31,465 bases of DNA from a virus, in the IMG/VR virus record IMGVR_UViG_3300014962_000036, positions 1 through 31,465 of that record. One strand, 5' to 3'. Shown in pieces: positions 1,856-28,000 of this stretch. Below the pieces are notes generated by a model. The model did not search any database, was not told the origin of the DNA, and saw only the letters and a list, made by a program, of their open reading frames with translations. The translations under genes were made by a program, and so were the position numbers. Numbering within the stretch: the first letter of the stretch is position 1; each line of letters opens with the position of its first letter.

Positions 1856-2516
1856 AAAATTTCCCCTCTGCACTCAGAATGTAATAGCTTCACCTGGACA
1901 TATGTCCATCTTTTGCAGGTTTTATTATTATCCTCAGACTTTGGTTCAATGACCTTGGCTCCTCTTACTCGATATTTTATTACCGCTATTACATATCTGC
2001 TCACCCTTGGGAAGTGAGTTGTGGTGCATTACAGCGAGCATTTTTTAGTTTGTTTCGTTCTCTATGTGTCCTTAATACCAACGAAAACTTTGCATCAGGT
2101 TTCAATACATGTTTATTGCCATCGGCCATGTATCGCTAAACTGACATAGATGCTGTGTGCTCCCGACCATCACAACAACTATTTTGGTGCATTAAAAAGA
2201 TAAGCGAGGTCAGATTTTGCCCACTCGCTTGTTTACATTGCCTGACATTCTCCATATAAATATGGTGGCTATAGTGATATTCTGTTTTTCAACAGAATAT
2301 AGCAATGAAACTCCCAATAAGCGTATGCATCCACTTATTAGGAAAAAAGAACAAACTCCTTTACCACAAGGTTGGCATATAATAGCCCATCAGTTTGTTC
2401 AATGTATGTTTTTTCGATTCAAGAAACATACAAAACTTGGGTTGTAGTTTTACTTCCCACTTAACCAGAGGAGAAGAAGCAGTTTATAGACATGCTTAGG
2501 TCTTTTTCTGCGAGGA
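1856..2516 (-). other. Gene-poor, hairpin-rich stretch
   Basis: No convincing gene is visible in these 660 bases. The only notable frame, a GTG-started 70-codon one at 1792-2004, would translate straight through the terminator at 1823-1855 and into the next gene. The stretch is instead dense in inverted repeats: a 14-base palindrome TGGACATATGTCCA near 1894-1907, a CGTT/AACG stem within about 2053-2090, ATACATG/CATGTAT within about 2107-2135, and the string of six hairpins annotated at 2202-2432. The most economical reading is one or more leftward non-coding RNAs. Confidence 0.5.
2202..2432 (-). ncRNA. Candidate structured RNA, six hairpins
   Basis: Read leftward, six hairpins follow one another with few unpaired bases. 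They are TGTATGTTT/AAACATACA (2403-2432), GAACAAACT/AGTTTGTTC (2349-2400, then TTTTTT), CC-AATAAG/CTTATT-GG (2314-2342), ATATTCTGTT/AACAGAATAT closed by a GAAA tetraloop (2277-2300), CCATA/TATGG (2252-2265), and AAGCGAG/CTCGCTT (2202-2230, then ATCTTTTTAA). A GTCAG/CTGAC pairing around 2213-2247 would interlock with the last hairpin as an H-type pseudoknot. The GAAA loop exists only on the minus strand, and one non-canonical pair is G.U there but C.A on the plus strand. There is no open frame of note. No known RNA family is recognised. Confidence 0.45.
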
Positions 2517-2768
2517 TTATATGCAATCATCGCAGAAAGTTCCCATTCCGTCAACCACATTTTGGTTGACGTGAACGGCAACTCCACAATTCCAGCAAGC
2601 ACTCATTGCTTGCTTAGAAACAACAGGGTGGACTCCTGTGACATGACCACTGTCATGCCAATTTATCTTGAATGTCCTTCCATCAGTGGTTTGGAAGGTG
2701 TCATGGTTAAATCCCCATGACTCGAAGGATGTGCCATTATCGGCACAAAATTTCTTAACGTCAAACAT
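2517..2768 (-). CDS. Small zinc-ribbon-like protein
   Basis: An 83-residue protein, MFDVKKFCADNGTSFESWG onward. The N-terminal half (DGRTFKINWHDSGHVTG) looks like beta strands. The C-terminus carries CWNCGVAVHV and then CDDCI at the very end, two CxxC pairs about 17 residues apart, the spacing of a zinc ribbon. Function unknown; nucleic-acid binding is plausible. The start codon lies inside a GTCAAAC/GTTTGAC hairpin (2760-2778) downstream of a cloverleaf leader, so translation may be controlled. A TTTCTGCGA/TCGCAGAAA stem spans the 3' end of the gene but lacks a T-tract. Confidence 0.65.
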   Translation of the reverse strand: MFDVKKFCADNGTSFESWGFNHDTFQTTDGRTFKINWHDSGHVTGVHPVVSKQAMSACWNCGVAVHVNQNVVDGMGTFCDDCI

Positions 2769-2778
2769 ATAGTTTGAC
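2760..2778 (-). promoter_or_regulatory. Hairpin enclosing a start codon
   Basis: GTCAAAC and GTTTGAC pair perfectly (7 bp) around the loop TATAT. The ATG of the gene starting at 2768 straddles the loop and the 3' arm, so this fold would hide the start codon. It lies directly 3' of the cloverleaf leader. Confidence 0.5.
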
Positions 2779-2788
2779 AGTTTTTATA

Positions 2789-2894
2789 GAGGTGTCTCCT
2801 CTTTATTTGGTTTGAGCATGGCAAAGCATCTAAACCTATATATTGAACAAATATATAGACCAAACAGGAATATTCCTGTTTTGCACCAAATAAA
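2789..2894 (-). promoter_or_regulatory. Cloverleaf leader RNA, copy 1
   Basis: Read leftward, a 10-bp closing stem (2885-2894 with 2802-2811, TTTATTTGGT/ACCAAATAAA) encloses three hairpins. P2 is a 20-base perfect palindrome (2862-2881). P3 is CTATATAT/ATATATAG (2836-2858). P4 is ATG/CAT around a CTTTGC loop (2818-2829). Junction segments GTGCAAA, TTGGTC, GGTTTAG and GCTCAAAC are shared with copy 2 at 3207-3308, while the stems differ and still pair. A small GAGG/CCTC hairpin (2789-2801) and TATAAA follow before the start codon at 2768. It resembles a riboswitch or other structured leader; I recognise no known class. Confidence 0.65.
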
Positions 2895-2902
2895 AAAAGT
2901 GA

Positions 2903-2925
2903 GGTAGTTTATTGTCATACCTCAG
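2903..2925 (-). terminator. Terminator after gene 2935-3183
   Basis: GAGGTA/TACCTC stem with an 11-nt loop. Read leftward it is followed by AC and seven T, which merge into the first strand of the cloverleaf leader. Confidence 0.7.
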
Positions 2926-2934
2926 GACAGAAGA

Positions 2935-3183
2935 CTATTTTACCTTGTTGGGATATAGCCTTTTTGCTTCATTTTTGAAGCAAGTATAAGCTTTGTAATC
3001 CCTTCTGTTGTGTAGAGCGTATGTCTCACCCCAAACATTGTCAGTTGGTCCTAACTTATCTACACGGGTTACCCCATTGTAGGGGCAATAAATTTCCCAT
3101 TGCGAATCCTCTTTTGCAATTAAAGAAAGGACATAAAATTCAAATTTGTTAAAATTTACCCAATTGGGAACATTCTTTACCAT
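2935..3183 (-). CDS. Small hypothetical protein, 82 aa
   Basis: An unrecognised 82-residue protein, starting MVKNVPNWVNFNKFEFYVLSL. It is rich in aromatic residues, with WEIYCPYNG in the middle and a basic C-terminal segment (HNRRDYKAYTCFKNEAKRLYPNKVK). The two cysteines are far apart, so no metal site can be claimed. A small DNA- or RNA-binding or host-takeover role is conceivable from the charge and context only. It is monocistronic: terminator 2903-2925 follows it, and terminator 3317-3340 plus cloverleaf leader copy 2 precede it. Confidence 0.6.
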   Translation of the reverse strand: MVKNVPNWVNFNKFEFYVLSLIAKEDSQWEIYCPYNGVTRVDKLGPTDNVWGETYALHNRRDYKAYTCFKNEAKRLYPNKVK

Positions 3184-3206
3184 ATAACACAGTCTCTAAT
3201 ATTTAT

Positions 3207-3308
3207 ACACCTAATGGACCAGAGGTGTTGTGTTTGAGCGTCGTAAAGACCTAAACCTGTATATATAATAATATACAGACCAATAGACATTTGTCTATTT
3301 GCACACAA
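3207..3308 (-). promoter_or_regulatory. Cloverleaf leader RNA, copy 2
   Basis: Same architecture as 2789-2894. The closing stem is TTGTGT/ACACAA (3303-3308 with 3228-3233). P2 is AATAGAC/GTCTATT (3282-3299), P3 is CTGTATAT/ATATACAG (3257-3278), and P4 is GTC/GAC around TTTAC (3240-3250). Junctions GTGCAAA, TTGGTC, GGTTTAG and GCTCAAAC are identical to copy 1, while all four stems have changed on both sides. An ACACCT/AGGTGT hairpin (3207-3228) and TATAAA follow before the gene starting at 3183. Confidence 0.65.
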
Positions 3309-3316
3309 AGGAAAAG

Positions 3317-3340
3317 AGAGAGCCTCATTATAGGCTCTCT
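3317..3340 (-). terminator. Terminator after gene 3328-3723
   Basis: AGAGAGCC/GGCTCTCT, 8 bp, with the TAA stop of the gene inside the loop. Read leftward it is followed by CTTTTCC. Cloverleaf copy 2 begins only a few bases further on. Confidence 0.75.
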
Positions 3341-3723
3341 TTATTTATAATGTCTGTTGCCATCCTAATGACATCAACATCTCCTGCCACCTTTTCCTCA
3401 TCATAATAATAAGGAGCAGATTCTGTATCTGCCGTTGCACCCACAACATCTCCATTTCTGTCTAGGATGACAAGAGAATAGGCATATACATCCTGCCCAT
3501 CTGATGTCCAAGAAAGCTTGGAAACATTCAAATGAACGTAATATGTGCCTGTTATCTGCACATCTGTAGGCCACGCATTCTCGTAGAAAGTTTCCTCTTC
3601 TCCATCATAAACAGATTCTGTTTGAAACTGCCAATAAACAGCCCTATCATCATCCATCTCCATCTCACTTTCTTTAACAATCATCTCTTCCATATTAGGA
3701 AGAACAATCTTTAAGAGTTTCAT
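3328..3723 (-). CDS. Acidic hypothetical protein, 131 aa
   Basis: A 131-residue protein starting MKLLKIVLPNMEEMIVKES. It is strongly acidic (EMEMDDDR, YDGEEETFYE, YYYDEEKVAGDVD) and rich in Tyr and predicted beta strands, for example TGTYYVHLNVSKLSW and YAYSLVILDRNGDVVG. Acidic small phage proteins sometimes act as DNA mimics or inhibitors, but nothing specific supports this. No membrane segment or catalytic motif is seen. About 200 bases of hairpin-rich sequence precede the start at 3723, suggesting a long structured leader. The stop codon is embedded in its terminator. Confidence 0.6.
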   Translation of the reverse strand: MKLLKIVLPNMEEMIVKESEMEMDDDRAVYWQFQTESVYDGEEETFYENAWPTDVQITGTYYVHLNVSKLSWTSDGQDVYAYSLVILDRNGDVVGATADTESAPYYYDEEKVAGDVDVIRMATDIINKESL

Positions 3724-3747
3724 AATAGATTGAGTTTATTTATTAAT

Positions 3748-3885
3748 GAACAATATAAATGCTATATATATGCTCTCAAGGAGCAGAATTGTAAATGTTC
3801 TTTGTGTCCCATATATATGAGACTACTTATACATCACCTCTCACATTCCTCTCTAACTCACTCAAAATCAATGAGTTATGATGTA
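3748..3885 (-). promoter_or_regulatory. Structured leader of gene 3328-3723
   Basis: Three hairpin units are read leftward. The first is TACATCA/TGATGTA (3830-3836 with 3879-3885) enclosing TAACTCA/TGAGTTA (3854-3860 with 3872-3878). The second is GTCTC/GGGAC around ATATATAT (3806-3823). The third is TGCTC/GAGCA (3771-3785) inside GAACA/TGTTC (3748-3752 with 3796-3800). In the second, the odd pair is G.U on the minus strand but C.A on the plus strand, which assigns the RNA to the leftward transcript. Nothing in this stretch is coding. Confidence 0.45.
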
Positions 3886-3897
3886 TTTTTTCTATTA

Positions 3898-3935
3898 GCC
3901 CACCCTAAGAAGTGTACTTCCCACCCTATATATAA
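3898..3935 (-). promoter_or_regulatory. TATATA / double GGGTGGG element, copy B
   Basis: Read leftward: TATATA, GGGTGGGAA, a GAAG/CTTC hairpin, then GGGTGGG. It lies between the multi-branched RNA (3939-4060) and the structured leader of gene 3328-3723. Same layout as copy A at 4142-4190. Four G-triplets allow a quadruplex. Confidence 0.5.
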
Positions 3936-3938
3936 TAA

Positions 3939-4060
3939 TGACACACGACAGACCCAATAACTTAGGGTTTCTTGGACTCAGAGAGTATCCTACTGTCTAC
4001 TTCCAAAGAGTGCAATACCTCTTTGGTATTGATACAGATTGCCTGTATCTCAGTGTGTCA
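3939..4060 (-). ncRNA. Candidate multi-branched RNA, about 122 nt
   Basis: The ends close with an 8-bp perfect stem (TGACACAC 3939-3946 with GTGTGTCA 4053-4060). Inside, GATACAG/CTGTATC (4031-4049) and CCAAAGAG/CTCTTTGG (4003-4026) are perfect hairpins. GACAG/CTGTC (3947-3951 with 3993-3997) stacks on the closing stem and encloses ACCC/GGGT (3952-3968) and GGACTC/GAG-TA-TCC (3974-3990). AATACC/GGTATT (4014-4030) competes with the second hairpin, giving two exclusive folds. No open frame of note. The minus strand is inferred from the surrounding terminators; no known family is recognised. Confidence 0.5.
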
Positions 4061-4065
4061 ATATT

Positions 4066-4180
4066 ATAAAAGAAAGAGAGCCCTGTGTATCATTTCAAGG
4101 GATGCTCTCGTGTGCTAAGTCCAACGTGTCATTTCATTTCACTATTCCCACCCACAAATGACGCATGTCATTCCCACCCA
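4066..4180 (-). ncRNA. Candidate small RNA between two terminators
   Basis: After the terminator of gene 4252-4611, a TATATAT box is followed by GGGTGGGAA, then about 70 nt without a useful frame. A hairpin with arms GAGAGC/GCTCTC (4076-4081 with 4104-4109) and a TTTCTTTT tail ends the unit. This gives a discrete unit of about 115 nt. The 5' end is inferred from the TATATA box only, so the boundaries are approximate. Confidence 0.35.
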
Positions 4181-4190
4181 TATATATAAT
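4142..4190 (-). promoter_or_regulatory. TATATA / double GGGTGGG element, copy A
   Basis: Read leftward: TATATAT, GGGTGGGAA (4171-4179), the perfect hairpin AATGAC-ATGC-GTCATT (4157-4172 region), then GGGTGGGAATAG (4142-4153). The last 12-mer occurs again, on the other strand, at 4803-4814 ahead of the first rightward gene. Confidence 0.5.
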
Positions 4191-4207
4191 GGTGTTATTG
4201 ACGGAAA

Positions 4208-4243
4208 GCAAGGCTGCCACTCAATTAAGAGCAGCAACCTTGC
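4208..4243 (-). terminator. Terminator after gene 4252-4611
   Basis: Arms 4208-4222 and 4229-4243 pair over 15 positions with a 6-nt loop, followed leftward by TTTCC. Three pairs are G.U on the minus strand and would be C.A on the plus strand, which fixes the direction. Confidence 0.8.
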
Positions 4244-4251
4244 AAAAGCGG

Positions 4252-4611
4252 TCAGATGTTGACCGCAGCGAGAGCCTTCAGGCTCTCTTCTGTGAGCCCA
4301 GCAGCCTTTGCTGCTGTGACAAAGGCGGACTCTGCCTCTATCACAAGAAGCCTGTCCGAATTCCAAGCCTCAATAGCAGAGGCTTTTGAAGTGAAGGCTG
4401 CCATTATCTCGTCCCTTACGAGTTCCTTTCCTTCTTTATCAGTACGTGTTACCGTACTGACAATAGCAAAGAAACTCTCAGGAAGCTTGTCTCCGAACGT
4501 TCCTTTAGCAGCCTTCTCAGGCATTATGAACTGCACGCCATCAGAACTCTTACCTACTAAGCGACCTGCACCTGAATAATACGGATTCAGGATTTGAACT
4601 AATTTCTTCAT
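4252..4611 (-). CDS. Hypothetical protein, 119 aa
   Basis: I choose ATG at 4611 (MKKLVQILNPYYSGAGRLVG) over a TTG three codons upstream, because it is the first conventional start after an A/T-rich leader. The product is about 119 residues. An N-terminal beta part (VGKSSDGVQFIMPEKAAKG) is followed by an Ala- and Glu-rich helical C-terminus (SKASAIEAWNSDRLLVIEAES and AAGLTEESLKALAAVNI). No recognised family. Its GC content is higher than in the neighbouring left-arm genes. It is the first gene leftward of the divergent control region, so probably the first of the left arm to be transcribed, and it ends at the strong terminator 4208-4243. Confidence 0.65.
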   Translation of the reverse strand: MKKLVQILNPYYSGAGRLVGKSSDGVQFIMPEKAAKGTFGDKLPESFFAIVSTVTRTDKEGKELVRDEIMAAFTSKASAIEAWNSDRLLVIEAESAFVTAAKAAGLTEESLKALAAVNI

Positions 4612-6837: not shown

Positions 6838-7156
6838 AACTACATATGTTAATGCAGAGCTTGATTGGGCTGAAGAACAACTTCAGTCCTGGAAGGCTTA
6901 TGTGGATGCCAATCCTCTTCACACTTTGAAGGATAGGATTGAATGGAAGCCCACATCAAAAGGAGGAATGCTTCCTATGGTGATTGCCAGTATTGAGGCA
7001 CAGGGTAAGTTTATTCAGGAGACAATGAAGAATTATTTGGCTCTTTTGGAAGTGGTTGACAAGCTTAGGAAGATTGAAGAGGCTAAGGTGGAAGTGAGGG
7101 GAAAGGTTGAGCTTGGAGGAATGGCTGAGGATTTTCTAAAGAGTAGGAATAAATGA
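6821..7156 (+). CDS. Possible small terminase subunit
   Basis: A 111-residue protein, mostly helical. Residues 5-30 (SKTTYVNAELDWAEEQLQSW), an ordered loop around DRIEWKPTSKGG, then a long helix from about residue 55 to 95 (MVIASIEAQGKFIQETMKNY and beyond) with coiled-coil character. The stop overlaps the start of the large terminase gene as ATGA, the usual place for TerS. Small terminases share little sequence, so the assignment rests on position, size and helical content. It could equally be an unrelated packaging accessory protein. No separate helix-turn-helix is obvious. Confidence 0.45.
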   Translation: MAKTSKTTYVNAELDWAEEQLQSWKAYVDANPLHTLKDRIEWKPTSKGGMLPMVIASIEAQGKFIQETMKNYLALLEVVDKLRKIEEAKVEVRGKVELGGMAEDFLKSRNK

Positions 7157-10100
7157 TTCATAGTATAGATTATAAAGATTGGCTTATAAATCAAAAGCGT
7201 CTCCCTGATAGGGAGTCAGAAGAATATAAACCCTTTTTTGACTTTCATAAGGAGCTATGCTTGGAAGGAGCTATGATGAATGGGGTGTATATCAACCCCT
7301 TTTTATATTGGCATTTGAACGTATGGCATACGGAAGTGGATATTATTGATGAGCGTGGGAAGATTTCCCAAAAATATAACAATCCTCTTCTTAGGGACAA
7401 TGAATGGATAGTGACCAATGAGATAGACAAAGCCCAAAAGGAAAAGAAAGGGCTTGTTATTCTTGGTATTAGAAGGTTTGCCAAAGCCCTTCAAAACGAT
7501 GAGCTTCTATATACACCCAATGGAGAAATAACCATAGGGGAAATAAAGGAAGGAGACAGGATATACGGAGCTGATGGAAAGCTCACCACCGTCACAGGAG
7601 TATTTCCTCAAGGGAAGATTCCTATATATAAGATGGTGTTGGAAGATGGAAGAACTATATTGTGCTGCGAAAACCATATTTGGAGGGTGAAAGATAGACG
7701 AAATGGAGGAAGTATAAAGAACCTCACCGTCAAACAACTTCTTCCAATATACAAAAACAAGAGAGTACATAATGGATACAAAGATGGTGTGCAAAGAACA
7801 GTTGATGAATGCCTCTTTGCTATTCCTAATAACAATCCTGTAGAATATGAAGAACAGGAGCTTCCCATCAGTCCTTATTTTTTGGGACTTTGGCTTGGTG
7901 ATGGAAGCTCAAGAAGGACAGGCATCACCACTATTGATAGGGAAATAGTCGATTATTTACATAAGTATGCTAGTTCTTTAGGACTTTTTGTAAGACAGGA
8001 TGAAACAGAATATATAATTACATCTGGCAAAATGGGAGGAAGGGCTGATAAAAATCCCCTTCTGAATGCCATGAAGGAATGTAATTTGATAAGAAATAAG
8101 CACATCCCTTCAGATTATTTGTATTCCAGTGTTGAGCAAAGGATGGAACTTCTCAAAGGTCTGATGGATACAGATGGTACAGTTTATTCAAACGGAACAA
8201 TAAGTTTTACAACTACAAATGAGAACATTGCCGAAGGATTTTACACCATATGTAGGAGCTTGGGAATAAACCTAACAAGAAAGAAGTTTATTCCAAAGTT
8301 GTATGGAAAACCCTGCGGAGAAGGGTGGTTGTTCACTATATTCACAGAACTTCCAATATTCAAACTGGAAAGAAAGCTGAAAAATTACAGAATAGGGAAT
8401 AAGGGAAAACAGTTTAAAATAAACTATACATCCATAAGAGAGATTTCTCTGATGGGAGAGGACTATGCCACTTGTATTACGGTGGATAATAAGGACAAGT
8501 TATTTCTAACTACCAATTACACTGTTACACATAATTCTGTATTGGAGGCAAGCTATATAGCATGGGGAGCTACATTTGATGAAAACTCTCAAAATATCAT
8601 TGCTGGTCTGAATGCTCCAGATATAAAACTAATTACGGACAAGATAGACAAAGGTCTTAACTTCCTTCCTGAGTATTGGAGGTGGCAGAGGATTGAGGAC
8701 AATTGGAAGAACCAAGTGACGTTAGGTATAAAGACCAGGGGAGGAGAAAGAATCCCGTTCTCACAAATCCTCATAAGGAACCTTGACGAGGGTAATAATG
8801 AAGAGGCTATTGCAGGTACAAAGCCCCGTAAACTCATCATTGATGAGATTGGTAAGGGAAGCTTTCTGAGAGGATTTCAGGCAGCTGTTCCTGGTTTCAC
8901 TACTCCTTATGGATGGGGATGTTCCCCCATTTTGACAGGTACAGGTGGTGATATGAAAAAATTCATGGACGCTAAATCACTTATGTTCGATGTGGACAAC
9001 TTCAACTTCCTTTCCTACAACAATTCAAATGATAGCAAAAGAATGCACGGATTGTTCATATCCTACAAATACCGCATGGAGGCTAAGGAACAATCTAGTT
9101 TGGGAGTCTACCTCAACACACCAGTCAACGATTTACACAACATACCTATGTTAGTGAGCAATGAATCACTAGCCAAGGAAATTACATCAAAGAATCTAGA
9201 AAGACTAAAGAAGGCAGGGGATAGGATAGCCTACCTAAAGGAAAAAATGTACTACCCACTTGAAGTGGATGACATATTTCTCAACGAAGACACTAACATA
9301 TTTGATATTGAAGCTGCAAAAAGGCAGAAGACAAGAATTCAGAATGCAGAAAAAACAGGGATTCCTGTAGTGTTGTTTGCTGATGAAAATAAGATTTCCC
9401 ACGAATTCACTGATAAACAACCAATTACAAACTTTCCTCTAAAAAACTCCGATTTAAAGGATGCTCCTATAATAATATATGAGTTTCCTGTAGAAAATCC
9501 TTCATACGGACTGTATGTTGCTGGAGTGGACCCCTACAGACAAGGGCAATCGGCATATAGCTCCTCTTTAGGAGCAGTGTATGTTTATAAACGAATGCAC
9601 GATATTACAGGAGAGAAATATCAGGACATGTTTGTTGCATCTTATGTAGCAAGACCTGATAAGAAAGAAGTGTGGGAAGAACAAGCAAGATTGCTCATCA
9701 AGTATTACAATGCAAGGACGCTTTGTGAAAACGATGACATATCCTTTATAGAATACATGAAGGCCAAGGGAGATGCCCATTATTTGGAAAAACAACCCCA
9801 ATGGCTTCTTGAAGTGGTACCAAACACCACGGTAAAGCGTGAATATGGTGTGCACAGGAGTTCTCAGAAGGTGATTGACTATCTGCACAATTGCCTCAAG
9901 AAGTATATGGAGGAAGTGATACATGTGGAAAAGGATGACGATGGTAATATTATAAGGGAAGTTACAGGGGTGAGCAAGATGTTCGACCCTGTACTTTTAG
10001 AGGAAATCATACAATATCATGATGGTGGCAACTTTGACCGTATAGTTGCTGCAGAACTGGCAATTGCACAGGCTTTAAAAATGGACCCCATAATGGGAAG

Positions 10101-10227
10101 AGTGGGGGGAAGTGGAGATAGTAGGGTGGCTGCACTGTTTTCAAAGAAACCAACAGAAAGAAGACTGTTCAATTCTTCTTCTTCAGGAATGTTTGGAACT
10201 AAAACAAAACGTAAACTTTTTACATAA
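7153..10227 (+). CDS. terL: Large terminase subunit with intein
   Basis: The packaging motor ATPase and nuclease, 1024 codons, of which residues 112-461 are an intein; the spliced protein would be 674 residues. The ATPase P-loop is GIRRFAK (105-111) joined after splicing to S462, matching the GxRRxxKS/T form of crAss-like terminases. Walker B is KLIIDE (560-565). The RNase H-like nuclease shows VAGVDP with D793, E859 in TLCENDD and D962 in FDRIVAAE as likely metal ligands. The gene starts inside the stop of the preceding small gene and ends on the start of the portal gene. Because the insertion splits the catalytic Lys from the following Ser, unspliced protein should be inactive as an ATPase. 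Confidence 0.95.
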   Translation: MIHSIDYKDWLINQKRLPDRESEEYKPFFDFHKELCLEGAMMNGVYINPFLYWHLNVWHTEVDIIDERGKISQKYNNPLLRDNEWIVTNEIDKAQKEKKGLVILGIRRFAKALQNDELLYTPNGEITIGEIKEGDRIYGADGKLTTVTGVFPQGKIPIYKMVLEDGRTILCCENHIWRVKDRRNGGSIKNLTVKQLLPIYKNKRVHNGYKDGVQRTVDECLFAIPNNNPVEYEEQELPISPYFLGLWLGDGSSRRTGITTIDREIVDYLHKYASSLGLFVRQDETEYIITSGKMGGRADKNPLLNAMKECNLIRNKHIPSDYLYSSVEQRMELLKGLMDTDGTVYSNGTISFTTTNENIAEGFYTICRSLGINLTRKKFIPKLYGKPCGEGWLFTIFTELPIFKLERKLKNYRIGNKGKQFKINYTSIREISLMGEDYATCITVDNKDKLFLTTNYTVTHNSVLEASYIAWGATFDENSQNIIAGLNAPDIKLITDKIDKGLNFLPEYWRWQRIEDNWKNQVTLGIKTRGGERIPFSQILIRNLDEGNNEEAIAGTKPRKLIIDEIGKGSFLRGFQAAVPGFTTPYGWGCSPILTGTGGDMKKFMDAKSLMFDVDNFNFLSYNNSNDSKRMHGLFISYKYRMEAKEQSSLGVYLNTPVNDLHNIPMLVSNESLAKEITSKNLERLKKAGDRIAYLKEKMYYPLEVDDIFLNEDTNIFDIEAAKRQKTRIQNAEKTGIPVVLFADENKISHEFTDKQPITNFPLKNSDLKDAPIIIYEFPVENPSYGLYVAGVDPYRQGQSAYSSSLGAVYVYKRMHDITGEKYQDMFVASYVARPDKKEVWEEQARLLIKYYNARTLCENDDISFIEYMKAKGDAHYLEKQPQWLLEVVPNTTVKREYGVHRSSQKVIDYLHNCLKKYMEEVIHVEKDDDGNIIREVTGVSKMFDPVLLEEIIQYHDGGNFDRIVAAELAIAQALKMDPIMGRVGGSGDSRVAALFSKKPTERRLFNSSSSGMFGTKTKRKLFT
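7486..8535 (+). mobile_element. Class 3-type intein with LAGLIDADG nuclease
   Basis: A 350-residue in-frame insertion, TerL residues 112-461. Block A is ALQNDELLYTPNG, so residue 1 is Ala instead of Cys/Ser. Block B (GRTILCCENHIWRV) has His at B:10 and Trp at B:12 (intein W66). Block F (ATCITV) has Cys at F:4 (intein C330). Block G (NYTVTHN) has Thr at G:5 and ends His-Asn, followed by extein Ser. Trp B:12, Cys F:4 and Thr G:5 are the signature of class 3 inteins, in which the F:4 Cys replaces the missing N-terminal nucleophile. Two LAGLIDADG motifs, YFLGLWLGDG (intein 131-140) and LLKGLMDTDG (222-231), mark an apparently intact homing endonuclease. Confidence 0.9.
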
Positions 10228-12827
10228 TGGCTATTATCAGATATACAAAGGATGCCACAATAAGGTATGCCTATTTGAACATATTCCCTGACCAGTTCAA
10301 AACAGAGAAAGAAAAGAGGGATGAAAGTTGGATAAAGAATACAATGGACTATTTTGCAAACAAGGCTTATGCCGAGTATGTAAAAAACAGGGATACATTT
10401 GTAAAAAATTACGATCTTGTAAAAGGCATCCTTCGCATGGAGGATTTCTATCAGGAACCTCAAGTGAAGAGTTTTACAGAAATGCTCACGTCAGACCTTG
10501 AACTTCCTGCCTATGTGAAACATTATTCCATCATCACTACACCAATTAATGAATTAGTTGGAGAAATATCCAAACGTCCTGATAGTTTTAGGGTGAAGGC
10601 TTTCGATGATGATTCTCAATCTGAAGAACTGGAATATAAAACCCAGATTCTTCAAGACTACATACTGGCAAATGCCAAACGTAAAATCCTTGAGAAAATT
10701 GCTATGTCAGGAGAATCTCCAGAAGAGGTTGATGAGGAGGAGCTTAATCAAATGACATTGGAAGAGGTAAAGGATGATATTGATAGTTACACCTCTACGG
10801 CAGAAAAATGGGCAAATCATCTGCTTACATGCACTAAGGCAGACTTCAATCTAAAGGAAAAGTCAGAGGATGCTTTCAGGGACATGCTTATAGCTGCCAG
10901 AGAATACTATCATATATATGAAGACAATTCCAAAACAGGATATAATATAGAAGTGCTCAACCCCAAGAACACTTGGTTCCTCACCACTCCTGACAGGAAA
11001 TGGATATCTGATCCCACAGGTAGGGCACAGGGAGCGTATGCTGCTGGTAGTGTGCAAGTTATGGAGCTTTCTGAAATCATTGAATCTATCCCTGACTTGA
11101 CAAAAGATGAGATTGACCATCTAAGGAGTTCCTTGCAAGACTATGGGTTGATCAATGTTCGTGAGTCCAACTTGGGTAATCCTAATGTGTCTCCAGGCAT
11201 TGACTCTGTAACATATGATACTTATGACCCATTGGTCCTTCAGACAAGGATGGTGATTGAAAGTGAAATGAAGGAAAACAATGATGGTCTCAAGGACTTT
11301 TTAGGTCTTACATCAAACGTGTCCTCATTTGGATATAAGTATGTGGTGGTGAGGGCTTATTGGATTTCCAAAAGGAAAATAGGAAAGCTCATCTATTTGG
11401 ATGAATTAGGTAACGAGCAGTCGATGTTAGTAGATGAAAACTACAAGAGTGGTTCAATTCCTACAGAACAATCATTGGAATGGGGATGGGTGAATCAGTG
11501 GTATCAAGGAACAAAGATTGGTCCAGACATCTATCATATAAAACCATTCAAACTTCTCACTTATTGTCCTATTATTGGAATAAATTATGAGGTGAAGAAT
11601 ACAGAAGCTAAGTCTTTGGTAGACCTCATGAAACCTTTTCAGGTGTTGTATAATGTGTGTATGAATCAATTGTACAAGTTGCTTGAGAAGGAAGTTGGTA
11701 AAGTTTATCTGACATCCATCAGGCATGTACCTGTTCCTAAGGATGGGGATGCGCAGGATGCTCTTGATATTTGGGAGATGGAGGCAAGAAATAGAGGAGT
11801 GGTATTCATTGATGATAGTCCTGAAAACCTGAAGAGTCCGTCAAGCTTTAATCAATTTAGGGACATCGATCTTACAAGGACACAGGAAATTCAATCTCGT
11901 TATCAATTGGCAATGCAGTTGAAAAATGAGTGTTGGGAATTGATAGGAATGTCAAGACAAAGGTTGGGAAGTATATCTGCAAGTGAATCTGCAACAGGAA
12001 CTAATGCTGCCATTACACAGTCTTATTCTCAAACTGAACCTTTGTTTGTAGCACATGAGTATGTACTGGGTCAACTCTATCAGGCAATCATTGATGCATC
12101 ACTTTATGTAGAAAGCAAGAAACCGCAATCCACCCTGTCATACATCACATCTGAAGGAGAATCAGCATTTGTACAAGTGAATGGTACAGACCTCAGATTC
12201 CGTGACCTCAAAGTGTTTCTTACCAATCGTCCTGAAGATAAGAAGATGTTTGAGGAGATTAGAAGTCTTTCTCAGGCAGTTATTCAGAATGGTGGGTCTC
12301 TTCACGATATTATAGAACTGTATTCCACTGATTCTATCAGGCAAATGAAGAATGTCTTCAAAAAACTGAAGGATAGACAAGAACAATTGCAAGACCAGCA
12401 AATGCAACAGCAGCAACAACAAATGGAGCAGCAACAACAAATTGCCCAACAACAGATGGAAGAAGCCAAGATGCTTCAGCAAGAGAAACTTGCCCACGAT
12501 GACTACCAAAGGGAGCTTGATAGAATTAGTAAAGAGAAAATTGCAATCATTCAGGCTACAGGATTTGGTAAGGTGGAGAGTGAAGATGTTAATCAGAACG
12601 CTGTTCCTGATGTCCTTGAGATGAGTAAGTTTGCAAGTGAGGAAGCTAAAGCCGCCAAAGAATATCAATTGAAACTCTCGGATATACAGAATAAGAATAG
12701 ACAAGCTGCTGAGAAAATGCAGATTGAAAGGGAAAAACTTCAGATTCAGAGGGAAAACATGGCAAATGACCTTGCTATTGCCAAAGAGAATGCAAAGGGT
12801 AGGAACAAAGCTCCAAAGAAGAAATGA
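10227..12827 (+). CDS. Portal protein
   Basis: An 866-residue protein directly after the terminase, the position and size of the dodecameric portal ring through which DNA enters the head. The N-terminal two thirds are a mixed fold with segments such as YWISKRKIGKLIYLDELGN and HIKPFKLLTYCPIIGINYE. Residues about 155-190 are very acidic. From about residue 712 the chain becomes a Gln-rich coiled coil (DQQMQQQQQQMEQQQQ) and ends in a basic tail, RNKAPKKK, probably in the helical barrel pointing into the head. The start shares one base with the TerL stop. The gene overlaps the next by 4 bases. Assigned by position and resemblance to crAss-like portals. Confidence 0.85.
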   Translation: MAIIRYTKDATIRYAYLNIFPDQFKTEKEKRDESWIKNTMDYFANKAYAEYVKNRDTFVKNYDLVKGILRMEDFYQEPQVKSFTEMLTSDLELPAYVKHYSIITTPINELVGEISKRPDSFRVKAFDDDSQSEELEYKTQILQDYILANAKRKILEKIAMSGESPEEVDEEELNQMTLEEVKDDIDSYTSTAEKWANHLLTCTKADFNLKEKSEDAFRDMLIAAREYYHIYEDNSKTGYNIEVLNPKNTWFLTTPDRKWISDPTGRAQGAYAAGSVQVMELSEIIESIPDLTKDEIDHLRSSLQDYGLINVRESNLGNPNVSPGIDSVTYDTYDPLVLQTRMVIESEMKENNDGLKDFLGLTSNVSSFGYKYVVVRAYWISKRKIGKLIYLDELGNEQSMLVDENYKSGSIPTEQSLEWGWVNQWYQGTKIGPDIYHIKPFKLLTYCPIIGINYEVKNTEAKSLVDLMKPFQVLYNVCMNQLYKLLEKEVGKVYLTSIRHVPVPKDGDAQDALDIWEMEARNRGVVFIDDSPENLKSPSSFNQFRDIDLTRTQEIQSRYQLAMQLKNECWELIGMSRQRLGSISASESATGTNAAITQSYSQTEPLFVAHEYVLGQLYQAIIDASLYVESKKPQSTLSYITSEGESAFVQVNGTDLRFRDLKVFLTNRPEDKKMFEEIRSLSQAVIQNGGSLHDIIELYSTDSIRQMKNVFKKLKDRQEQLQDQQMQQQQQQMEQQQQIAQQQMEEAKMLQQEKLAHDDYQRELDRISKEKIAIIQATGFGKVESEDVNQNAVPDVLEMSKFASEEAKAAKEYQLKLSDIQNKNRQAAEKMQIEREKLQIQRENMANDLAIAKENAKGRNKAPKKK

Positions 12828-14634: not shown

Positions 14635-16188
14635 ATGGCTATTCAAACAATCCCAGGTGTAACTGGTTTTACCTATGCAAGGGTTGCCTCTATGGACAAA
14701 CGTGCAGTGGGTAAATTGACGGACGCTAACCACTTGGAAAGCTTCCACTCTACTGAAGCTGCAGACTATGACAAGAAAATCATCAGTCTCTACACTCAGA
14801 GCTCGTTGTACAGCAACGACTTTTTGGACATGATTAACAAGTCCACTCCCTACTACATTGACAACAATAGTGATGCTTGGAAATGGCAAATTGCTGTTCC
14901 TTACAAGTTCCCCAAAATCATTGATGTTCCTACAACAACTACTAACTTGTTGAAGCCAGGTATTGATGGTCAGGAGTTTTCTCTTGTACTGGATACCAAC
15001 GAGTTCTCCAAGAACGCAATTGTATCTGTTGGTTCTCGTCAATATGGTCCTAGGTTTTATGTTGTAAAAGATCCCGTTCCTTGGAATGCTGGCTATCTGT
15101 ACACTTTCACCTTGGTAAGTGACAATCCCACTGTAGACTTTGTAAGTTCTACGTTCCTGCAAACAGGTATTGAATTGGAAATGGTGGATGCTGCTATTGG
15201 TGAATTTGACCAAGATCTGCTGGGTCTTCCTCGCTTGGGTGAGCAAATCACTATGTTTGAATCCCTTGGTAGTGCTTATGGTTTTGAGCACAAAATCACC
15301 GAATGGGCAGATGACAAGATGATGCGTGATGCAAGTGGTCGTCCTTTGGACATTCTGGTTTATGCTCCTCAACGTAGGAACCAATTACCCCTCACTCGTA
15401 ATGATGTTAAATGGGAGCCGTTCATTGAATTCTGGATGCGTAAGTCTATGCTTGAATTGAAAATCAAGCGTATGATTTGGAGCAAGCCTGGAACTGTTAA
15501 AACTAATGGTTCTAAGCAAGAATTGAAGCGTACTTCTGCTGGTGTATATCACAGGATGCGTAATAATGGTAACCTTGTACAATACAACCGTGGAGAATTC
15601 ACTGCAAACCTTATTCGTTCTGTATTTGGTGACCTGTTTTATCGTAGGGTGGATGTAAAAGACCGTAGGGTGAAGATGTACACTAATGAAGCAGGATTTG
15701 ATGTATTCCAGCAAGCTTTAAAGGCAGATGCTTTGAACAGTGGTCTCACCTTTATGGCAGATAGCGGAAATCGTTATATGCAAGGCGAAGGTCAACACAT
15801 CACCTACAACTTTGCTTTTGATAGCATGGTTACAAGGGAAACTGGTCGTGTTGAACTTATTCACCTGAAGGAACTTGACCTTCCTCAGAGCAATCTGGAA
15901 TTTGGTCAGAACAAGAAGTCCACTCCTGTATTCATGGTGTTTGATGTAAGTCCGATGAGCGATGGCTCTATGGTGAATAACATTCGTGAAGTGAGGATGA
16001 AGGGTGCTCCTTCCATGACTTGGGGATATATTGATGGTACTCGTCACCACTTGGGCTTTGCCAAGTCTCAAGGTATGAGTTCTGCTAATAAGTTCCCTGG
16101 TTATGAAATCTGGATGAAAGACCGTTGTGATGTATTCATTGAAGACCTGTCTCGCACAGTTCTGATAGAAGAAATACCGCAGTTCTAA
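14635..16188 (+). CDS. Major capsid protein
   Basis: A 517-residue protein after the scaffold, resembling the crAss-like major capsid protein (HK97 fold). The N-terminus, MAIQTIPGVTGFTYARVAS, leads into a helical arm (DKKIISLYTQSSLYSNDF), and the body includes WKWQIAVPYKFPKI and LRFYVVKDPVPWN-like strands. The gene uses more C-ending, highly regular codons than its neighbours, consistent with very high expression. The start is preceded by an A-rich leader (AAAAAAGCTAAAATAAC) without Shine-Dalgarno, as in Bacteroidota. Its mRNA runs into the structured region at 16197-16356. Confidence 0.85.
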   Translation: MAIQTIPGVTGFTYARVASMDKRAVGKLTDANHLESFHSTEAADYDKKIISLYTQSSLYSNDFLDMINKSTPYYIDNNSDAWKWQIAVPYKFPKIIDVPTTTTNLLKPGIDGQEFSLVLDTNEFSKNAIVSVGSRQYGPRFYVVKDPVPWNAGYLYTFTLVSDNPTVDFVSSTFLQTGIELEMVDAAIGEFDQDLLGLPRLGEQITMFESLGSAYGFEHKITEWADDKMMRDASGRPLDILVYAPQRRNQLPLTRNDVKWEPFIEFWMRKSMLELKIKRMIWSKPGTVKTNGSKQELKRTSAGVYHRMRNNGNLVQYNRGEFTANLIRSVFGDLFYRRVDVKDRRVKMYTNEAGFDVFQQALKADALNSGLTFMADSGNRYMQGEGQHITYNFAFDSMVTRETGRVELIHLKELDLPQSNLEFGQNKKSTPVFMVFDVSPMSDGSMVNNIREVRMKGAPSMTWGYIDGTRHHLGFAKSQGMSSANKFPGYEIWMKDRCDVFIEDLSRTVLIEEIPQF

Positions 16189-25051: not shown

Positions 25052-28000
25052 ATGGCTGACGAGCAACAATCAAACATAAAGCAGGAAAGCAACGTTGCTG
25101 TGGCAGGTCTAAATATGGACCAAACCCTTAATCAAGTTCAAAGGGGAAAGCTCACTTATGCATTAAATGCTGCTGTTGAGAATTACGATGCTTCTGGTGT
25201 AAATTACCAGAATGAACCAGGGAACGAACTTTGTTTGAATTTCCCTGAGAACTATCATGTTATTGGTACACATAGCATTCTTGAGCAAGGAAAACATATA
25301 TTCTTTTTAACTGACCCTGAAACAGGAGATAGTGAAATTGGATATATGGATAATAATGATTGTATATATAAGACATACATAAATGCAAAATGTCTGAATT
25401 TCAACATCAACAATCCTATACACAAGTCAGTACATAAAATTACTAATTGCAGTACAGAAATATACTGGACAGACGGGGTGAATCCTCGTAGATACTTGGA
25501 TATCAACAACTTACCTTATAAAATTGCACCAGGATCTGATGTTTGTGACAATGAAACAATTCCCCAAATAGACTGTAATAAACTAAGTGTACAGCCTAAT
25601 TTCAATATTCCTCAGCTTGAGGTAGTTGATGTTGTCAATGGAGGAGACCTAACTGCAGGAACTTATCAGTTTGCAATACAATATAGTGATGTTAACGGAA
25701 ATGCTTACACTTCCTATTATTCCATCACAAATCCTACACCGATATCAAATCCTGATATCACTACACCAGACTTCAATTACTCCGTAGGAAAGTCAATAGT
25801 ATTGAATATATCAAACATTGACATTACAGGATACTTCCAATATTTCAATTTGGCAGTGATCAAAACTGTCAACGCAATTACGTCAGTGGAACTGGTAGGT
25901 ACATATTTCATTGATACAAACAATAAACAATTCACTTACACTGGACAGAACAAAACTCAAATAAGACTCACTGTTGATGATGTATTTGAGAAGTTTCCAT
26001 ATTACGAGATTGCTGAAGATATAACATCTGTTGAAGACACTCTTGTTTGGAAGGGGTTGACGTCCATAGATAGAATCAACTATCAGCAAATTGCCAATCA
26101 AATAAAACTGCAATGGCAAAGCTATAAGCTTCCTGCTACAGAAAACTATGCAGATGAACTGAACGCTACCAATCTTAGAGGATATTTAAGAGATGAAGTG
26201 TATGCTTTTGAGGTTGTTTTTCTTTTAAAGAACGGCAAACAGACAGATGGATTTCATATCCCTGGAAGAACAATTTCTGCAACAGAAGCAAGCTTACCTA
26301 ATATCCCTAATACTAACCCAGACTTCATAGGTGATGGTACAAGTGCTCCTTATTGGAAGATTTACAACACAGCTTCCGTAATAGGGGATGCTATAGGAGA
26401 AAACATTAACTCTGCCACTCCTTATAAATATGGAGAGTTTGCATATTGGGAATCTGAGGAAACTTATCCTTGTAACACTGATGTGTGGGGAGAATTGGCA
26501 AGTCAGCCCATCAGACATCATAAGTTTCCAGATGTAAGGGTGAGTCCTATATTTGAAAGTGGTTTATACACTGTTACTCCAAACATGCCAGTTGTAATGG
26601 AGGAGCGTTCTGTGTTTCCTTTGGGCGTAAAGTTTGATGTACAGCAAGTGATTGCTCTTATACAGACATCATCGCTTACACAAGAACAGAAAGATAACAT
26701 TGCAGGATTTAAGATAGTGAGAGGTGACAGGAGCACCAATAAATCAATTATTGCAAAAGGTATTCTTAGGAACGTAGGTAAGTATGATAGGGAAGGAACT
26801 TCTTATTATTTTCCAAACTATCCATACAATGACCTTAGGCAAGACCCATTTATTCTGCAGAAAAGCAATGCTTACACTAATAGTGGAGATCCCTATTCAA
26901 GTGGATGCAACACTTTCAGGATATATGGCGTAGTGGCAAGTGGTTCTTACACCTATACAGATTGCTACACAAATACGGTGGTTACAAAAACACTTTCCGT
27001 AGGAGATGATTTTAGTATATGTTCCCTCACCCGTCCTACATTCTCTTCTGCAGGAATAGCGTCAATAACACAAACGTCATTTGCTACATACAAACTCACT
27101 TGCTATGGTCCTGGAATTTGTGAGTTCATAACTTATGGTGATATAGGTGCTGCAAATCCTCTTGCAAGTGTACTAAGTGGCACATCTCTCACTGTTATAT
27201 CATATCTATATCCATCTCGCCCAGCATCAAGTGTAACCTACACTATTGAGAAAGTGAGTGTAAACGGTGTGAATGGATGTGCACCAACTCCTTTGAATGC
27301 ATATGATTACACTGATGTAGGACTAAGGCAAGTGTTCAATTCTCCAGAAACTTCTTTTGGCAATCCCACTCTTGGAAATGTACTAAAATTAGAAAGTGCA
27401 ATATTTGGTGCTGGAAAAGCACATCATGTTGAAGTGAAGAAACATGCAATGTATAAACTTGTTTCTGCTGAAGCTCAACAGGATGCATTGCTTTCAAGTA
27501 CAAAGATAGCTAATATTACAGGCACGTTTGATGCTAGTGCAATGTTTGTGGCATATCAGTCATACTTGACAATATATATAAATGGAATAACAAGAAGAAA
27601 TTACGCATATTCATATAACTCAAGAGCGCAATATGATTACTGGGCACCAATAGACAATAATCTTGGAATAAAGCAGAGGGTTATTGACAATGCTCAGTAT
27701 CTCTTCTCTGGAGTACAGAACATTGGTGAAACAATAAATTTCAATAATTACAATAGAGAATCATCTGTTTATATTAAAACTAACACTTCTCTTCCTGTTC
27801 CAAACAAAACAAATAGCCTATGGATTGGACCAGTGGATCCATCAATAGAGGATGTTTCTAGATGGACAATATCTGAAAAGAACAATTGCAATACTCCTGA
27901 GAATCAGTTTGATATAAAGGTGGTATCCTACTATGCTTCAATAAAGAACAACCTCGTAAACCAATGGGGTCAAATATATTCATACAATACAATAGACACA

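Follow-up and report, generated by a model that had tools for sequence, protein, structure and literature searches.

Class 3 inteins are known both from the P-loops of helicases and from phage terminases. Their chemistry has been established for MsmDnaB1, MleDnaB and BviIcmO and consists of an attack by the cysteine at position F:4, transfer to the +1 residue and cyclisation of an asparagine (PMC5222942). One proven member of the class, MsmDnaB1, lies between the Lys and the Ser of a P-loop and has this Ser as its +1 residue (PMC6195587, PMC5222942). A survey of the nr database counted 1701 class 3 inteins, 82.5% of them with LAGLIDADG motifs, and found deviations from the class signature at the Trp in 6.1% and at the Thr in 4.6% (PMC7891396). 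Among inteins of the large terminase subunit (TerL), TerL1-c, TerL1-d and TerL1-e are named as class 3 inteins of phages in PMC5050341, and TerL inteins of delta crAss-like phages are also in print (Yutin et al. 2021, PMC7886860). Here we analysed a stretch of virus DNA of 31,465 bases, the contig record IMGVR_UViG_3300014962_000036 (hereafter the window), in which the Walker A motif of TerL is interrupted by an insert of 350 residues. We consider it highly likely that the TerL P-loop here holds a mobile intein of class 3 with a LAGLIDADG endonuclease.

Within the Walker A motif GIRRFAK|S the insert separates Lys111 from Ser462, with Ala112 directly after Lys111. It starts with ALQNDELLYTPNG and ends with YTVTHN, and its reading frame is free of stops and frameshifts. 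Searches of IMG/VR with the C-extein yielded 86 TerL loci (L096-L181), listed at 82-88% identity, and in all 86 the site is uninterrupted, LGIRR[FL]AK being followed directly and without a gap by SV[LI]. Since these relatives are uninterrupted at the site, both splice junctions are fixed without recourse to intein motifs. The intein-free TerL of Lbo-JY46 reads RRLAK|TQ at this position, and that of Cellulophaga phage phi17:2 reads RRLFK|ST. The insert is not a chance sequence, because it matches Hom_end (E 1.5e-13) and LAGLIDADG_3 (E 9e-11, above its cut-off) in Pfam, because 783 of 50,697 phage records match it in tblastn at E<=1e-3, and because its closest homologue, in the record L002 (IMGVR_UViG_3300028571_000830), shows 63% identity along its entire length and occupies the same TerL site. 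The comparison of sequences thus confirms an in-frame insert in a conserved host protein that is gaplessly absent from homologues. An earlier note on this DNA had placed a 350-residue class 3 intein at positions 7486-8535 between Lys111 and the Walker A Ser, reading Ala as its first residue, B:12 as Trp, F:4 as Cys, G:5 as Thr, the last two residues as His-Asn and the +1 residue as Ser. Translation bore out the placement to the residue and every one of these features, and the comparison with intein-free TerL proteins that it had called for returned the exact empty site in the 86 relatives.

The splicing class was examined in an alignment of 80 inteins, made up of the one in the window, that of L002 and those of 78 IMG/VR loci that are, L002 apart, 28-41% identical to the window intein. 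The homologues were gathered by the pattern LLxGLxD[TS]DG, the matches listed being ordered by how similar they are to the window; of the 80 pattern loci, L016, which duplicates L002, and L085, which has a frameshift, were dropped before counting, which left 78. The seed alignment left out the Trp-lacking phage inteins L004, L005 and L013 and also csAssE-Sib. As the second LAGLIDADG motif served as the search pattern, its conservation is partly built in, while the splicing positions His64, Trp66, Cys330, Thr348, His349 and Asn350 all lie outside the pattern. His64, Cys330, Thr348, His349 and Asn350 are each present in 80/80 inteins and Trp66 in 78/80, the remaining two having Phe and Asn. Residue 1 is Ala in 54, Ser in 3 and Cys in none. 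In ten intein-bearing phage records the F:4 Cys is present in 10/10, the G:5 Thr in 10/10 and the B:12 Trp in 7/10. In the window intein the first residue is Ala1, as fixed by the empty site in relatives, so there is no Cys, Ser or Thr nucleophile at residue 1, and Ser stands at +1.

A profile of the 80 inteins was compared with all PDB chains. The top matches were MchDnaB1 (6rix, E 5.2e-33) and then MsmDnaB1 (6bs8, E 3.5e-32). In the profile alignment Trp66 lies over the class 3 B-block Trp and Cys330 over Cys124 of MchDnaB1 and Cys118 of MsmDnaB1, the residues named as class 3 nucleophiles in PMC7664689 and PMC6195587. Aligned with proven class 3 inteins, Trp177 and Cys441 of the open reading frame (ORF), which are Trp66 and Cys330 of the intein, fall on positions B:12 and F:4, as the earlier note had proposed. 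The profile also scored gp41-1 with a grafted Trp-Cys-Thr set (6riz, 81.0 bits) above wild-type class 1 gp41-1 (6qaz, 67.8 bits). By these sequence comparisons, membership of the window intein in class 3 is well supported. A class 2 route, in which Ser462 would attack the N-terminal junction directly and Cys330 would not be the initiator, could draw on Ala at residue 1, as in class 2, and on a +1 Ser that is a nucleophile. However, Cys330 and Thr348 are both invariant in homologues whose residue 1 diverges, class 3 inteins supply the solved splicing domains that come closest in the profile search, and changing the F:4 Cys stopped splicing in the three class 3 inteins described in PMC5222942. 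We regard this route as highly improbable.

The structure of the intein was predicted with AlphaFold from the 80-row alignment, with a mean predicted local distance difference test score (pLDDT) of 95.4 and a predicted template modelling score (pTM) of 0.92. The predicted fold is a Hint domain, with splicing blocks A, B, F and G, joined to a PI-SceI-like LAGLIDADG endonuclease, and the whole model matched PI-SceI with a Z of 28.2 over 329 residues. Among structures that consist of a Hint domain only, the top matches were the class 3 entries 6riy, 6bs8 and 6rix (Z 19.9, 1.7-2.0 Å over 125-128 residues); 6riz, two Prp8 inteins and gp41-1 followed at Z 19.1-19.3, which by the rule of the tool is a tie with the class 3 rows. 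By this match W66, C330 and T348 would come close together in the active site, as the earlier note expected of a structure prediction.

The endonuclease domain appears to be intact. Both LAGLIDADG motifs, reported as intact in the earlier note, are present with Asp139 in the first and Asp228 and Asp230 in the second. The block D lysine of such endonucleases has a catalytic role, and it is likewise conserved here. Comparison of the window intein with that of L002 gives an identity of 61% for the endonuclease part and of 65% for the splicing part. Synonymous sites between the two are saturated, and no ratio of nonsynonymous to synonymous substitution rates (dN/dS) was obtainable. Since identity stays at these levels despite the saturation, both halves of the intein are apparently under selection, which fits an active, mobile element. 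Active homing of the window intein is consistent with these sequences.

Could the intein instead be dead or decaying, so that TerL is broken, or could the contig be a mixed assembly? The function of the window intein is predicted from its sequence, L002 is the only other carrier phage in a single-sequence IMG/VR scan, its intein being 63% identical, and the 86 near relatives all do without. Against this, the frame is open throughout, every splicing and endonuclease residue is intact, the guanine-plus-cytosine (GC) content of the intein (37.3%) is near that of the window (38.0%), and the same arrangement stands on the independent 117-kb contig L002. We regard this alternative, too, as highly improbable.

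By analogy with proven relatives we infer the chemical steps, homing and the need of packaging for splicing as follows. The TerL precursor would be translated whole, and the Hint domain (about residues 1-115 and 305-350) would fold. Cys330 at F:4, aided by His64, Trp66 and Thr348, would attack the Lys111-Ala112 bond and form an N-extein thioester, and Ser462 at +1 would then receive the N-extein. Cyclisation of Asn350, helped by His349, would release the intein, and an O-to-N shift would leave a Lys111-Ser462 peptide bond with the Walker A motif GIRRFAKS restored. Because it is splicing that would restore Walker A, the motor would bind ATP only afterwards. From the insertion site one may soundly infer that unspliced TerL would be inactive and that packaging would hence depend on splicing. 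The central LAGLIDADG domain (about residues 116-304) would cut the empty terL of co-infecting relatives, and repair would spread the intein.

An intein at such a site may also have been domesticated, with redox-dependent splicing gating packaging, as has been proposed for the P-loop intein of M. smegmatis DnaB. The window intein has its class and kind of site in common with MsmDnaBi1, in which the nucleophile can be tied up reversibly in a disulfide (PMC6195587), and it carries Cys60-Cys61 at the B block (7663-7668), adjoining the B-block His. Cys61 replaces the Asp62 that is located near Ala1 in MsmDnaBi1; position 61 is Cys in 22/80 homologues and Asp in 34/80. On the other hand, the actual disulfide partner in MsmDnaBi1, Cys48, corresponds to Ile47 in the window intein, and the intact endonuclease together with the absence from 86/86 near relatives suggests a mobile element rather than a fixed switch. 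Domestication of this kind therefore seems very unlikely to us. We attach only a slim chance to the related proposal that the intein acts as a post-translational packaging gate, TerL remaining without ATP binding until Cys330 is free and reduced, with Cys61 offering a disulfide partner. If such a gate did exist, packaging would await the redox state or merely the time taken by splicing.

Several points weigh against a mobile class 3 intein as the best description of the insert. The support for its splicing class comes wholly from homology, and class 3 is inseparable from class 2, with its direct +1 attack, from sequence alone; the class 3 signature by itself is not decisive according to PMC5222942. 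As to mobility, third codon positions around the insertion site are ordinary (0.44 vs 0.40, rank 263 of 654 windows), so there is no sign of a homing target at the DNA level beyond the conserved protein motif. The TerL tree, for its part, cannot say whether the window and L002 were invaded separately or share one invasion followed by losses.

The occurrence of the intein is sporadic. It is found in the window and in L002, the only close relative in the single-sequence IMG/VR scan, whose C-extein is 80% identical to that of the window, and it is missing from the 86 near relatives. In a tree of inteins, from which L035 and L067 were also excluded, the window groups with L002 with a support of 95. 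Other inteins of crAss-like or crAss-near TerL proteins lie near this pair with weak support. Three histories were tried and set aside. One was a separate invasion of the window and L002, for which a quick TerL tree splits the two; the approximately unbiased (AU) test, which took 47 of the 88 ingroup rows and also left out the outgroup, gives no rejection of a clade of the two (p 0.54). Another was a single old crAss-like intein lineage: eight rows of the intein tree (the window, L002, csAssE-Sib, cr111_1, DAC15, L017, L053 and L030) share one side of a branch with a support of only 67, the csAssE-Sib row is very long and the host gene of L030 was not identified as crAss-like. A recent arrival was sought in composition, and GC contents of 37.3% for the intein, 36.6% for the N-extein, 40.1% for the C-extein and 38.0% for the window gave no signal.

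The gene order of the window runs from TerL through portal to capsid (Table 1), and as all three are of crAss-like type (phrog_6681, phrog_6547 and Crass_capsid), the window is, on the evidence of these genes, part of a crAss-like phage genome. This agrees with the crAss-like terminase host of the earlier note. The named phage with the closest C-extein is Leptolyngbya phage Lbo-JY46, at 40.7% identity. Positions 25052-30505 of the window encode a virion structural protein of 1817 amino acids (phrog_37948, E 3.6e-111), likely a giant crAss-like virion protein. When the window was scanned for other splicing elements, no Rfam match and no tRNA were found; Pfam and PHROG scans, which missed some small ORFs, found no second intein, and an NCBIfam scan gave nothing above cut-off.

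Table 1. Coordinates of the intein, its key residues, the interrupted TerL gene and neighbouring genes in the window.
Feature	Position	Strand	Basis
TerL precursor ORF, 1024 aa, interrupted by the intein	7153..10227	+	phrog_6681 terminase large subunit, E 8.8e-81 on C-extein
N-extein, 111 aa, ending LGIRRFAK (first part of Walker A)	7153..7485	+	Translation; empty relatives LGIRR[FL]AK|S
Class 3 LAGLIDADG intein, 350 aa (well supported)	7486..8535	+	Translation, Pfam, alignment, PDB profile search, predicted fold
His64 (B:10), Ile65, Trp66 (B:12)	7675..7683	+	His 80/80, Trp 78/80; aligned with MsmDnaB1 B-block His and Trp
First LAGLIDADG motif FLGLWLGDG, with Asp139	7879..7905	+	Asp 79/80
Lys205, block D lysine of the endonuclease	8098..8100	+	80/80
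Second LAGLIDADG motif LLKGLMDTDG, with Asp228 and Asp230	8149..8178	+	80/80, motif also the search pattern
Cys330 (F:4), proposed initiating nucleophile	8473..8475	+	80/80; over MchDnaB1 Cys124 and MsmDnaB1 Cys118
Thr348 (G:5), His349 (G:6), Asn350 (G:7)	8527..8535	+	Each 80/80
Ser462, +1 residue and Walker A Ser	8536..8538	+	Translation; intein-free relatives
C-extein, remainder of ATPase and nuclease domains	8536..10224	+	PHROG match and homologue searches
Portal protein	10227..12827	+	P22_portal E 6.2e-15; phrog_6547 E 2.3e-100
Major capsid protein, crAss-like	14635..16188	+	Pfam Crass_capsid E 1.8e-27

Among the 78 loci, the intein lies between the Lys and a Ser or Thr in at least 72 (Lys|Thr in 52, Lys|Ser in 20), a lower bound because the intein starts of several loci were extrapolated from the alignment. 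Pfam scans of the 78 host ORFs, run as 40 and 38, identified terminases of several families, DnaB-like proteins, PhoH, SNF2, UvrD and other nucleoside triphosphatases (NTPases). From this site count and these hosts it follows that the window intein, judged by sequence, is one of a broad population of class 3 inteins directed at the P-loops of phage NTPases. A large and diverse set of phage class 3 inteins thus sits in the Walker A motifs of terminases, helicases and other NTPases.

Some phage inteins depart from the full class 3 signature. The P-loop intein of Staphylococcus phage CF5 (L004, 2501-3556) has Ile at B:12 with the F:4 Cys and G:5 Thr, as does that of Lactococcus phage AM4 (L013, 2474-3535), which starts with Cys and so has both class 1 and class 3 nucleophiles. 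The TerL intein of Vibrio phage VCO139 (L005, 2501-3514) and its relative in L079 (1183-2223) have Asn at B:12 and keep the F:4 Cys and G:5 Thr; the two cluster in the intein tree with a support of 100. Caudovirales GX15bay (L007, 2501-3541) carries a class 3-like intein that has Trp, Cys and Thr and starts with Ser; its site, LIGG|T, does not resemble a P-loop and lies in a protein named PhoH.

Among solved structures, mycobacterial inteins are the best matches of the window intein by sequence profile. Like it, MsmDnaB1 (DnaBi1) and MchDnaB1 (6bs8, 6rix) have Ala1, Trp at B:12, Cys at F:4, Thr at G:5, a His-Asn end and Ser at +1, and MsmDnaB1 also has its P-loop location. Unlike it, they reside in mycobacterial DnaB helicases and are mini-inteins without an endonuclease, and DnaBi1 has Cys48 for redox control (PMC6195587). 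In mycobacteriophages the TerL1-a intein separates the invariant Lys of the P-loop from its Thr (Kelley et al. 2016, PMC5050341), where the passages describing it leave its class unstated; the hosts of the TerL1 inteins are, unlike that of the window, actinobacteriophage terminases. The one delta crAss-like example analysed, cr131_1 (L182, Suoliviridae, 1982-4480), has a LAGLIDADG intein with Cys1 and an HN|C end at the C-terminal TerL site GG|CDP, and its Cys1, +1 Cys and location mark it as class-1-like and at another site. The cr131_1 TerL was read with TAG as Gln, and soon after its intein the frame meets a stop and shifts.

Class 3 inteins with LAGLIDADG motifs, and class 3 inteins between the P-loop Lys and Ser, are already published. 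Walker A Lys|Ser was a known class 3 site (PMC6195587). The suggestion of the earlier note that a crAss-like terminase extends the known hosts of the class holds for the printed literature only. No paper pairing "class 3 intein" with "crAss-like" was found in the literature searched, and a crAss-like host adds some interest, as this label seems to be missing in print; yet public genomes already contain unlabelled class 3 inteins at this P-loop site, namely those of the Crassvirales phages DAC15, DAC17 and cr111_1 and of their relative csAssE-Sib. In databases, then, class 3 inteins of crAss-like TerL proteins are present but unlabelled or misnamed. With its many empty-site relatives, a resource for homing or fitness tests, the window provides a well-bounded class 3 example in a crAss-like packaging motor.

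The deposited TerL inteins of DAC15, DAC17 and cr111_1 (Steigviridae), that of DAC17 being known only from a 100% tblastn match, share with the window intein the P-loop Lys|Ser site, Ala1, the Trp, Cys and Thr, the His-Asn end and LAGLIDADG motifs. They are about 32-33% identical to it, belong to another crAss family and are annotated as hypothetical, DarB-like or terminase, the class 3 label being absent. DAC15 has been cultured on Bacteroides thetaiotaomicron. Its TerL (L008, 3383-6715) is called hypothetical in GenBank and a DarB-like antirestriction protein in RefSeq; other intein-bearing phage proteins are also listed as DarB-like or hypothetical, as if the intein drove the naming. The csAssE-Sib TerL intein (L014, 2278-3000) has the same site, Ala1, Trp, Cys and Thr in 241 residues and has lost the LAGLIDADG motifs. 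That of MT839152 (L183, 3001-3726) has the same site, 242 residues, no LAGLIDADG motifs and Ser at G:5. Both come from human-gut phages, are related to the window intein and have a nearly identical C-terminus, FLTTNY.VTHN; from their sequences they look as if the homing cycle had reached its mini-intein stage in them.
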